Positions 2,263 to 5,769 of a stretch of DNA of 20,635 nt are shown piece after piece. The DNA is from a virus: positions 1 through 20,635 of the IMG/VR virus record IMGVR_UViG_3300035145_002212; one strand, written 5' to 3'. Within the stretch, counting starts at the first letter, position 1. The number at the start of each line of letters is the position of its first letter. The position numbers were made by a program, and so were the translations under genes. The notes below the pieces were generated by a model. The model searched no databases. It saw only the letters and a list, made by a program, of their open reading frames with translations, and had not been told where the DNA came from.

Positions 2263-2294
2263 TTCAGAATTGTTCTCCAGGCGATTTTTTACTC

Positions 2295-2301
2295 ATAAAT
2301 A
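2295..2301 (+). promoter_or_regulatory. Late-type promoter element ATAAATA for the gp26-type gene
   Basis: The sequence TCATAAATAG matches the core of T4-type late promoters (TATAAATA), which are read by a gp55-class sigma factor; such a factor is encoded in this window. It lies 33 bases before the ATG at 2335, leaving room for a short leader with TAGGA (2322-2326) as ribosome binding site. Seen as a motif only. Confidence 0.6.
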
Positions 2302-2311
2302 GTTTATAATA

Positions 2312-2318
2312 TATTTAT
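2312..2318 (-). promoter_or_regulatory. Late-type promoter element ATAAATA for the tape measure gene
   Basis: On the minus strand the sequence reads GGATAAATATAT. It is a T4-type late promoter core about 50 bases before the tape measure start. It is only 10 bases from the opposing plus-strand copy, so the two late transcripts are launched head to head from one 24-base stretch. Confidence 0.55.
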
Positions 2319-2334
2319 CCGTAGGATACAATGC

Positions 2335-3174
2335 ATGGAAAACAATACAAGTCCACTACAAAAATACCAAAGACAACCTAAACTGTATATTGATTTACCC
2401 AGTCAAGGTGTGTGGTATAATGAAAATGTAGTAACAAAATACAAAGATCTTGAAGTTTATAGCATGACTGCTAATGACGAAATATCTATAAAAACACCTG
2501 ACGCATTATTTTCAGGTATGACAGTTAAAACAATTATAGAAAATTGTGTTCCTAGTATTAAAGATGCATGGCATATTAATAGTATAGATCTTGACTACAT
2601 ACTTGCGGCAATTAGATTAGCAAGTTATGGCGACTCTATAACAATTGAAAAGAAATGCACTAAATGTGATAATGAAGATCAATACGCTATACCTGTACAA
2701 CCTATGCTAGATCATTTACAAAACACAAAACCTATATTTGACATTGAGGTTGAAGGGTTTAAAATACACATTCGTCCTCTTACATACAAAGAAATTGTTG
2801 AAAACAATCAATCAAATATGCATGTGAGTAGATCTTTACGTCAAGTTTTAAAAAGTTTTGCTGATGATGATCCAAAACAAGGCGAACATGTTGAAAAAAT
2901 GTACGATGAGCTCAATCAAAGAACTAAAGAAGTTGTTTGTAGAGTGATTACTATGATTACTACTCCAGACGGAGATAACGAACAAAATCAGCAATTTATA
3001 AGAGATTTTATTTTAAACGGCGAACCTGTGTTTTATAATACAATACAAGAAAGGTTTATAAACAATAATGATTTGCTAACTTTACCTCCAACAAAGGTAG
3101 AGTGTAGTGAATGCGGTGCTGAATCGGATATCAAAACCGAACTGGATTATTCAAATTTTTTCTCCAAAACCTAA
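2335..3174 (+). CDS. T4 gp26-type baseplate hub / tail-assembly protein, 279 aa (zero-frame product)
   Basis: This resembles the T4 gp26 family of small hub or tail-assembly proteins; T4 gp26 is 208 aa. The N terminus has the family-like segment KLYIDLPSQGVWY (residues 17-28). Two Cys-x-x-Cys pairs, C108/C111 and C257/C260, could form a zinc ribbon. The ATG at 2335 has TAGGA 8 bases upstream. The frame ends at TAA 3172-3174, ten bases after an A-AAT-TTT-TTC slippery run. A ribosome that slips back one base there would add 77 residues encoded to 3395, giving a 353-residue protein. The gene is a one-gene plus-strand island between the tape measure and a minus-strand unknown gene. A role as tail assembly chaperone for the tape measure is inferred from the frameshift arrangement and the neighbour; baseplate hub assembly is the traditional label. 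Confidence 0.75.
   Translation: MENNTSPLQKYQRQPKLYIDLPSQGVWYNENVVTKYKDLEVYSMTANDEISIKTPDALFSGMTVKTIIENCVPSIKDAWHINSIDLDYILAAIRLASYGDSITIEKKCTKCDNEDQYAIPVQPMLDHLQNTKPIFDIEVEGFKIHIRPLTYKEIVENNQSNMHVSRSLRQVLKSFADDDPKQGEHVEKMYDELNQRTKEVVCRVITMITTPDGDNEQNQQFIRDFILNGEPVFYNTIQERFINNNDLLTLPPTKVECSECGAESDIKTELDYSNFFSKT
3153..3162 (+). promoter_or_regulatory. Candidate -1 ribosomal frameshift site (A-AAT-TTT-TTC)
   Basis: In the frame of the gp26-type gene the codons read TCA AAT TTT TTC TCC. Two overlapping canonical X-XXY-YYZ heptamers are present: A-AAT-TTT (3153-3159) and T-TTT-TTC (3156-3162). After a -1 slip, reading continues CTC CAA AAC CTA ATC and stays open to the TAA at 3393-3395. Without a slip, translation ends at 3174. 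The motif and frames are seen directly; that slippage occurs is inference. Confidence 0.7.
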
Positions 3175-3395
3175 TCCCACTCGAGGACTCTGACATACTT
3201 GAGTTTTCTAATAAACTAGACAACGAAGTAAAACAACTCAAACACGAAGTATACAAGCTGTCTTGGTATATGCGAGGTGGTGTTAGTGCTACTGTGCTGT
3301 TCAATGACACTGACGTAGAAGATTTAAAAATTCTAGGTAAAATTATTACTGAAAATATTGAATCTACAAAGAAAAGTGGACTAAACTTAATTTAA
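3162..3395 (+). CDS. -1 frame extension of the gp26-type gene (gp51-position domain), 77 codons
   Basis: This frame is open from 3123, just after a TGA, to TAA 3393-3395. It encodes a well-formed helical domain with LEDSDILEF, then an amphipathic helix, KLSWYMRGG and a C-terminal TKKSGLNL. From memory, short proteins with the WYMRGG core and a TKK-type tail follow gp26 in other marine T4-like phages; this was not checked. Between 3123 and 3269 there is no ATG, GTG or TTG. The only start-like codons are CTG at 3258 and ATG at 3270, and the latter would leave 41 residues without the N-terminal half. The frame lies exactly -1 relative to the upstream gene across the slippery run. It is therefore most likely translated as the C-terminal part of a 353-residue fusion. 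It overlaps the stop of the convergent minus-strand gene by 4 bases. Initiation at a non-standard codon is the alternative. Confidence 0.72.
   Translation, partial: LQNLIPLEDSDILEFSNKLDNEVKQLKHEVYKLSWYMRGGVSATVLFNDTDVEDLKILGKIITENIESTKKSGLNLI
3179..3204 (+). other. Hairpin downstream of the slippery run
   Basis: ACTCGAG (3179-3185) pairs with CTTGAGT (3198-3204): 7 pairs including one G-U, with a 12-base loop. It starts 16 bases after the slippery run. That is further than the usual 5-9 base spacer for a frameshift stimulator, so it may be only a weak stimulator or incidental. Confidence 0.35.
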
Positions 3396-4798
3396 TCAAA
3401 CTTTACATTACTCGGATTCGGCGGCAACACATCTTGTGATTGATCTGGCGGTTCTATAGTTACATCTGCTGAATTAATATTATTCCAAGCATCTTGTGTT
3501 GAACGTGTAATGTCATCTCCGTCTAGTTTTACGTGATCATCTACTGCGTCTATTGCAGTTTTGAGTACCGGAGCAGTGATGTTTTCTCTATACTTATCAG
3601 CAAGTTCTTGAGCAATAGTACCTTCAATCCTGTCATGTGCCATCATTGCCCACGGAGCCATCCATTCTTTAGCTGTTTGCATCCACATACTGCTTAAAAT
3701 TGTTACTGTGGCTTGCTTTCCTACTTCTGTGTTCATTAACCATCTTACGCCAAAGTAAATAGCTAGTTCGGTCAAAACAAATATAACTACATTTACCGCT
3801 GCGGCACCAAGTAGCCCAACACCGAGCCCAGCGGATCCTGCTCCAAAAATAACAGCGGCGCCAACAGCTCTTACGTACCTTATTAGTGCCGCGGCAGCTT
3901 TTGCAGATGATATTGCAGCATTTGTCAAAACTAACATAATAGGAGCTGTCTGCATAGCAAATATATTAACTTCCAGTACTTCGTGTGCAGCTAGCCTTTG
4001 GTTTAGTAGTCTCTGCTGTTCGGCAAAATCTATTTCACCTTCGCTGTATCTCTTAATAACTTCTTGTTCATAAAGAAAAAGTTTTGCTCTTTCGTCTCTA
4101 AGTTTATTACGTAATTCTTCGTATGCTGGAATACTTGCTAGTCCTAGTATTCCTAAAAGTTTACCAAATGGTCCACGAGGTTTAAAAATTTGTTTTTTAC
4201 CAACGTCTTGATCTTTCATTGCCTGAAGGCGTTTTTTAGGATCGTTGTCGGCATTCCGTTCTGCTCTACGTGATCGTAGAGTTTTAAGACGACCTTCCAT
4301 TTGATCTATGTCATCTTGTGTAAAGTAAACTCCGTTGCGTTTTACAGGAATGCCTCTTCTAAGATCTCTTCTTTCTTTTCTTCTAAGATTCATTTCCTTT
4401 TTGGTCATTAATTCGTCAGGATCCATTTTAGCTACGTCTGCTCTAGGCTCATAACGTCCTATAGGAGTATTGCTAGTATCCGGTTTTTGAATAATAGGAT
4501 CTTTACTTCCAGCCGAAGTTGGTACGGTGCCAGATCTAAGATTTCCTCCACCGTCAAAATCTAAACGTGGCATTCCTTTTGCAGTTCTAGCTGAATTTAC
4601 AAAGCCACCTCTATATTTTTTTGGAATAGGTCCTTTTCTAATATCAGGAAACTCTTTTTTTGCTTGAGGAGAAATATCAGTAACAACAAAAGTATTACCA
4701 GCCCATCTAGCAGTGATTCCTTTCCACTTGGCGATATCGCCAGTGTCTAATTCGAAAGCACCTACATTTTCAACGAGTATTTCATTTATTGCTACCAT
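3392..4798 (-). CDS. Unknown phage protein with hydrophobic helices, 468 aa
   Basis: I do not recognise a family. Residues 1-90 look globular (KWKGITARWAGN) and are followed by a Gly/Ser/Pro-rich stretch (80-115). A very basic Arg/Lys-rich region spans 130-200. A charged helical region spans about 225-270. Strongly hydrophobic Ala/Val/Ile-rich helices lie near 277-300 and 309-350, then an amphipathic Trp/Met-rich part near 368-390 and an acidic C terminus. The hydrophobic helices could cross a membrane or be buried in the virion, as in proteins that travel in the tail or head. The start has AAGGA 8 bases upstream and sits behind a tandem late-promoter motif, which argues for a virion protein made late. 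Its 3' end overlaps the convergent gp26 -1 frame extension by 4 bases. It could equally be a late lysis or envelope-acting protein. Confidence 0.8.
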   Translation of the reverse strand: MVAINEILVENVGAFELDTGDIAKWKGITARWAGNTFVVTDISPQAKKEFPDIRKGPIPKKYRGGFVNSARTAKGMPRLDFDGGGNLRSGTVPTSAGSKDPIIQKPDTSNTPIGRYEPRADVAKMDPDELMTKKEMNLRRKERRDLRRGIPVKRNGVYFTQDDIDQMEGRLKTLRSRRAERNADNDPKKRLQAMKDQDVGKKQIFKPRGPFGKLLGILGLASIPAYEELRNKLRDERAKLFLYEQEVIKRYSEGEIDFAEQQRLLNQRLAAHEVLEVNIFAMQTAPIMLVLTNAAISSAKAAAALIRYVRAVGAAVIFGAGSAGLGVGLLGAAAVNVVIFVLTELAIYFGVRWLMNTEVGKQATVTILSSMWMQTAKEWMAPWAMMAHDRIEGTIAQELADKYRENITAPVLKTAIDAVDDHVKLDGDDITRSTQDAWNNINSADVTIEPPDQSQDVLPPNPSNVKFD

Positions 4799-4822: not shown

Positions 4823-4836
4823 TATTTATTATTTAT
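4823..4836 (-). promoter_or_regulatory. Tandem late-type promoter, two adjacent ATAAATA copies
   Basis: The minus strand reads ATAAATAATAAATAC, two directly abutting copies of the T4 late promoter core, 25-38 bases before the start of the 468-residue gene. This is the only doubled copy I saw in the window. Confidence 0.6.
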
Positions 4837-5319: not shown

Positions 5320-5769
5320 TTATGTGTTGGATTGTTTTGCCTGTATGGTGTGTTCTAGCAATGCCTTACGCAATTTATCGGAACCGCCAACTCTAACATT
5401 AATAATTCCATTGTAATACTCATCCGTCTCTAACACACGGCGGTCAAATTGCTCTCTAGCCTCAATATATGACATTTCACCTCTGCCTTTGCAAAGGTAA
5501 AGTATTTCTCTTGTAAAATTTTCTGCGCCTAGTGCTTCAACATCAGCTTGTAGTCTATCAGATGAACCCCAATAGTCTCGCCAATCACTTTCTTTGTAGC
5601 CTCTGCGTTTATTTTTCTTGCCTTTGAGAGGTGGCTTTGTGGTTTTAAACTTTGCTAGTTTCTTGCCTATATACTTTTGCTCTGTTTTTTTATTAGTAAT
5701 AAGGTAAACAAATCCTTCATACTCTTCAGGTATCACATCAATTTGTTTTCCTTTGTAAGTCCAGTGCAT
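5320..5769 (-). CDS. SegE-like GIY-YIG endonuclease, 149 aa
   Basis: A small free-standing DNA endonuclease of the GIY-YIG superfamily, of the type called SegE in T4-like phages. The GIY half appears as GFVYLITN (residues 19-26) and the YIG half as KYIGKK (32-37). Arg64 within the SDWRDYW segment and Glu103/Glu106 in YIEAREQF are candidates for the catalytic Arg and the metal-binding Glu of the fold. No separate DNA-binding domain is seen beyond the basic stretch at 36-60. It follows the 66-residue gene by 26 bases and ends the gp47-gp46 transcription unit. No intron-split gene is visible beside it, so it is free-standing here. In such phages these proteins may act as mobile endonucleases or as domesticated nucleases; the sequence does not decide. 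Confidence 0.75.
   Translation of the reverse strand: MHWTYKGKQIDVIPEEYEGFVYLITNKKTEQKYIGKKLAKFKTTKPPLKGKKNKRRGYKESDWRDYWGSSDRLQADVEALGAENFTREILYLCKGRGEMSYIEAREQFDRRVLETDEYYNGIINVRVGGSDKLRKALLEHTIQAKQSNT

Follow-up and report, generated by a model that had tools for sequence, protein, structure and literature searches.

Comparative evidence for a probable -1 frameshift in a T4-like tail assembly chaperone gene of an uncultured virus

Results

The gene and its two frames

The subject of this report is a gp26-type gene in a 20,635-nucleotide (nt) stretch of viral DNA (IMG/VR record IMGVR_UViG_3300035145_002212, positions 1 to 20,635), the whole of which is called the window here. The gene is predicted to encode a short and a long form of a tail assembly chaperone (TAC), named TAC-N and TAC-NC, the long form arising through a -1 frameshift into a C-terminal domain, TAC-C (Table 1). 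The zero-frame codons closing TAC-N are TCA AAT TTT TTC TCC AAA ACC TAA, and this reading agrees with an earlier, sequence-only reading of the DNA that there are two slippery runs in phase, A AAT TTT at 3153-3159 and T TTT TTC. No stop interrupts the -1 frame from 3123 until 3393-3395. Its earliest ATG, GTG or TTG is the ATG at 3270, which lies 36 codons into the 77-codon domain and encodes the Met of a conserved WYMRGG motif. Slipping would join 276 residues to 77, for a total of 353. The open reading frame (ORF) of TAC-N occupies 2335-3174, and all coordinates given in the sequence-only reading hold on rereading. The heptamer is unremarkable by itself in so AT-rich a window, where TTTTTTC occurs 12 times against 12.9 expected; evidence for a slip must therefore come from relatives.

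Table 1. Features of the chaperone gene and its surroundings in the window
Feature	Position	Strand	Remarks
TAC-N, gp26-type short tail assembly chaperone, normal translation product	2335..3174	+	279 amino acids; ATG 2335, TAA 3172-3174
Slippery heptamer T TTT TTC, zero-frame phase	3156..3162	+	last base 9 nt before the stop codon
TAC-C, 77-amino-acid domain in the -1 frame, reached by slip only	3162..3395	+	
TAC-NC, predicted 353-amino-acid frameshift product, ...DYSNFF-LQNLIPLEDSD...	2335..3395	+	inferred from slip at 3162
Weak candidate hairpin GAGGACTC/GAGTTTTC, 20 nt after the heptamer	3183..3208	+	best stem in the window
AGGA, Shine-Dalgarno-like, 8 nt before the TAC-N ATG	2323..2326	+	direct sequence reading
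CATAAATA, T4-late-promoter-like, upstream of TAC-N	2294..2301	+	ATAAATA core 2295-2301

TAC-N matches the Pfam family T4_baseplate (PF12322; E 3.3e-14, 53.6 bits against a curated cut-off of 24.5) and the PHROG family phrog_150, labelled baseplate hub (E 2.6e-17, profile positions 3-233 of 282). An AlphaFold2 model of TAC-N has a predicted local distance difference test (pLDDT) score of 92.5 and, within the viral structure library BFVD, is matched best by baseplate hub assembly proteins of T4-like phages; Foldseek gave no meaningful match to the model in the PDB. Sequence searches for relatives of TAC-N or TAC-C with solved structures found none, and the weak matches to TAC-C look like chance similarities between helical proteins. 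The surroundings are T4-like as well, with gp46-like and gp47-like nucleases, a late sigma factor, a gp25-like protein, a gp53-like protein and a gp5-like hub protein. When the gp26-type ORF was used as a tblastn query, it retrieved 62 phage records, mainly of jumbo myoviruses.

Conservation of the slip site

Relatives among uncultured viruses were collected from the IMG/VR viral contigs, where scans with single proteins found none and a scan based on an alignment succeeded. The query was an alignment of five gp26 proteins cut before the slip site, and the search patterns lay near the gp26 N-terminus, far from that site; 80 IMG/VR loci were retrieved. The end of gp26 was readable in 91 loci, namely the window, 11 phage records and 79 IMG/VR loci, and removal of redundancy at 80% identity left 55, to which the counts below out of 55 refer. 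PF12322 is matched by all 55 (E up to 0.001).

In 91 of 91 loci, an in-phase T TTT TTC precedes the stop codon by 10-40 nt and is followed by an open -1 frame, which extends 173-227 nt beyond the stop in all complete loci. All seven positions of the heptamer carry 2.0 bits each, and the codons at the slip are always NNT TTT TTC, although elsewhere in these genes phenylalanine is encoded 80% by TTT and 20% by TTC. The chance of this codon pattern, given the amino acids, would be about 10^-55 under independence of the lineages, an assumption that does not hold. The other run, A AAT TTT, was rejected as the main slip site, the AAT codon being present before TTT in only 24 of the 55. Of the two runs put forward from sequence, it is thus T TTT TTC that the relatives uphold, along with its phase.

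This conservation bears on a trivial reading, in which the T run is one base wrong through sequencing or assembly error, or the gene has decayed, and the two frames were once a single ORF. Homopolymer runs are error-prone and the window is a metagenomic contig; however, the same layout and run length are found in isolate genomes (RaK2, GAP32, 121Q, CBB and Atu_ph07), and the same heptamer recurs in S-PM2, P-SSM2 and KVP40. Because the two-frame layout is conserved, an error of this kind is effectively excluded, and we regard it as scarcely credible.

The domain in the -1 frame

The -1 frame is homologous in all relatives, and W35, R38, G39 and N65 are invariant among 46 sequences. Substitutions in the downstream -1 frame fall mostly at third codon positions, with counts for positions one, two and three of 22/12/37 between the window and locus L014 and of 9/3/36 between loci L035 and L041. 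This pattern indicates that the -1 domain is under purifying selection. A search with the domain alone finds Agrobacterium phage Atu_ph07, at a place directly 3′ of its gp26 homologue. TAC-C is modelled by AlphaFold2 as an all-helical domain of three helices (pLDDT 89.6), for which VIA-align found no match above Z 3.0. None of the phage records examined presents the downstream frame as a frameshift product; they either list it as a short hypothetical ORF or leave it out.

RNA structure downstream of the heptamer

Across the 55 loci, the 60 nt 3′ of the heptamer fold more stably than shuffled sequences, the mean folding z being -2.1 and that of a control region upstream -0.15. Of the 55, 24 have a strong stem that starts 5-6 nt past the heptamer, compared with 0.1 expected from codon shuffles. 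The hairpins span 12-61 nt from the heptamer start (loci L014-L093, for example L063, L072 and L026) and form two classes, in which the 3′ arm ends either 53 or 60-61 nt from that point. In each class both partners have changed at 7 of the 10 pairs, and none of 500 shuffles matches the covariation score; since the classes were picked for having the stem, the percentage paired is biased, and the covariation and the slide controls are still informative. This covarying hairpin may not have been described before.

The hairpin and the T run together bear on whether the slipping enzyme might be RNA polymerase, such that a fraction of mRNAs carry an added U and encode the fusion. A homopolymer run is present, and polymerase slippage is a known route into the -1 frame (PMC5009743). 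Against this, every one of the 55 loci has a run of six T, no more and no fewer, and then a C, in a fixed codon phase, and the relatives' hairpin has the spacing typical of ribosomal -1 sites. We consider polymerase slippage highly unlikely.

Observations that weigh against a frameshift

Several observations count against frameshifting as the route to the second domain. In the window and its nearest relatives, there is no stem 5-6 nt after the heptamer, nor one within the 5-9 nt taken to mark a stimulator, and no consensus structure was found for the window's clade. The folding z of the window is -1.5 over 60 nt and -0.01 over 100 nt, and the candidate hairpin listed in Table 1 is probably not a conserved stimulator. 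In addition, the sequence upstream of the slip site shows no Shine-Dalgarno-like stimulator when the whole set is considered. Finally, an ATG lies at the junction in the relatives Atu_ph07 and 121Q, and coupled initiation is possible in those phages.

The last point suggests that the second domain could be a separate small protein, translated after the gp26 stop through re-initiation or coupling, and 121Q and several other records do annotate the downstream frame as an ORF of its own. The window, RaK2 and many others nevertheless have no start codon able to yield the whole C domain alone, and re-initiation could not make most of the window's domain because its first start lies so far inside, an arrangement shared by many relatives. 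Nor would a separate protein explain the invariant, in-phase T TTT TTC. We therefore judge a separate protein to be very unlikely for the window. With respect to start codons, then, an extension devoid of its own initiation site, as described from the sequence, holds for the window and for many relatives, and does not extend to a minority that have an ATG near the junction.

As to the missing stimulator, a downstream stimulatory structure is common at bacterial -1 sites and not obligate. Frameshifting in the window's clade may rest on the heptamer alone or on some other signal.

The wider T4-like group and T4

A search for PF12322 in six records (S-PM2, P-SSM2, HTVC008M, KVP40, Atu_ph07 and T4) found one copy in each of the first five and two copies in T4 only. 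The single genes end in T TTT TTC, or T TTT TTT in HTVC008M, and their -1 frame is open 167-224 nt past the stop. In T4, gp26 consists of PF12322 alone and its gene ends TTC TTT GAG, without the heptamer, whereas gp51 has PF12322 plus about 48 C-terminal residues. Similarly, gp51 matches phrog_150 to position 280 and gp26 to position 235. The C-terminal extension of gp51 (locus L006, 8083-8226) resembles by eye the -1 domain of the cyanophages and KVP40, and from its sequence gp51 looks like a fused long form. Pairwise profile comparison of the window family with T4 gp26 and gp51 gave similarity below detection and is uninformative; the Pfam profile is informative. The records fit an arrangement in which the short and long forms would be two genes in T4 and one frameshifting gene elsewhere. 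The 2022 study by Vladimirov, Gautam and Davidson reportedly found conserved frameshifting in several groups of T4-like phages and the use of genes 26 and 51 by T4.

Neighbouring genes

Beside TAC-N, a divergent ORF of 741 amino acids occupies 37-2262 on the opposite strand. The sequence-only reading placed the gene next to the tape measure; the position and size of the 741-amino-acid gene make this plausible, and the RaK2 neighbour of the gp26 gene has been noted as tape-measure-like. Sequence searches brought no confirmation: the ORF matched no Pfam or PHROG family and had no BLASTP similarity to the RaK2 neighbour. On the other side, a convergent ORF of 468 amino acids (3392-4798, minus strand) shares 4 nt with the end of the -1 frame; Pfam gave no match to it, and PHROG no significant one. 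Farther on, the minus-strand gene at 5320-5769 encodes a SegE-type GIY-YIG endonuclease (PF19835, E 1e-33); the PHROGs label for its family, NAD synthetase, looks wrong.

The ATAAATA core upstream of TAC-N also occurs just upstream of the divergent 741-amino-acid gene (2312-2318, minus strand) and of the 468-amino-acid gene (4823-4836, minus strand). It is rarer than chance in the window (5 copies against 11 expected), and four of the five copies stand before gene starts. Searches for Rfam families and for tRNAs found nothing.

Discussion

We consider it very probable, on comparative sequence evidence, that the window gene is the tail assembly chaperone gene of a T4-like myovirus and that it is expressed as TAC-N plus, by -1 frameshifting, TAC-NC. 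The analysis shows a conserved, in-phase heptamer, a -1 frame conserved as coding sequence, no start codon able to serve it, membership of the PF12322 family and, in relatives, a covarying hairpin; we infer the occurrence of the slip, its rate, and the action of the products as chaperones. The majority of ribosomes would stop at 3174 and release TAC-N, while a minority would slip back one base on the heptamer, with both tRNA-Phe re-pairing in the -1 frame, and would read on to 3395 to make TAC-NC. Such a tandem tRNA-Phe slip is the simplest account of the data. By analogy with lambda gpG and gpGT, TAC-N would have the tape measure protein as its binding partner; the C domain added in the long form would bring in the tail tube subunit and thereby let the tube polymerise around the tape measure. 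A -1 frameshift with two products and a likeness to lambda G/G-T had been proposed from the sequence of the window, and comparison with relatives supports that proposal.

The distribution of hairpins permits a more tentative suggestion. It is possible, though rather doubtful, that a single invariant heptamer has been retained while the stimulator was rebuilt independently, giving two classes with a shared 5′ arm and different 3′ segments, and was dropped in some clades, including the window's. If this is true, frameshift efficiency would be tuned lineage by lineage, possibly with tail length.

There is also a consequence for annotation. A frameshift would account for the downstream frame being entered as a short hypothetical gene or left out, and records that annotate gp26 alone would miss the long form.

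Frameshifting tail chaperones of T4-like phages have already been described, and the window adds one further case. The sequence-only reading knew of no established frameshift for gp26 of T4-like phages, a view that is outdated: the T4-like tail assembly chaperone genes were identified by Vladimirov, Gautam and Davidson (2022, Virology 566:9-15), as cited in the PRFect paper (PMC10885494), which credits them with T4-like phages having a short gene and a longer fusion gene, and in the phage Adele paper (PMC12846349), which cites them for poly-T slippery signals in T4-like TAC-N genes. The TAC-N/TAC-NC pair predicted here is of the same kind, the window being an uncultured member. In phage Adele itself (Vandenendeviridae/Andersonviridae), a conserved GTTTTT close to where TAC-N ends is the site of a -1 frameshift (PMC12846349); the phage belongs to a different family, and its motif differs from T TTT TTC.

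The slip site of lambda is G GGA AAG. The window gene showed no similarity to lambda gpG/gpGT in family searches, no direct sequence comparison with lambda having been made, and the putative tape measure gene beside it sits on the opposite strand, unlike in lambda. In lambda there is likewise a short form and a low-abundance -1 extension in a tail gene; the binding partner of G is the tape measure protein, and that of the T domain is the tail tube subunit (PMC5009743). A 2016 review describes the G-T type frameshift as widely conserved in long-tailed phages except T4 (PMC5009743). Taken with these systems, the present case suggests that the lambda-type strategy of a short and a long chaperone made by -1 frameshifting spans uncultured T4-like, cyanophage, Pelagibacter phage and jumbo phage lineages, and that T4, with its split gp26 and gp51, is the exception.
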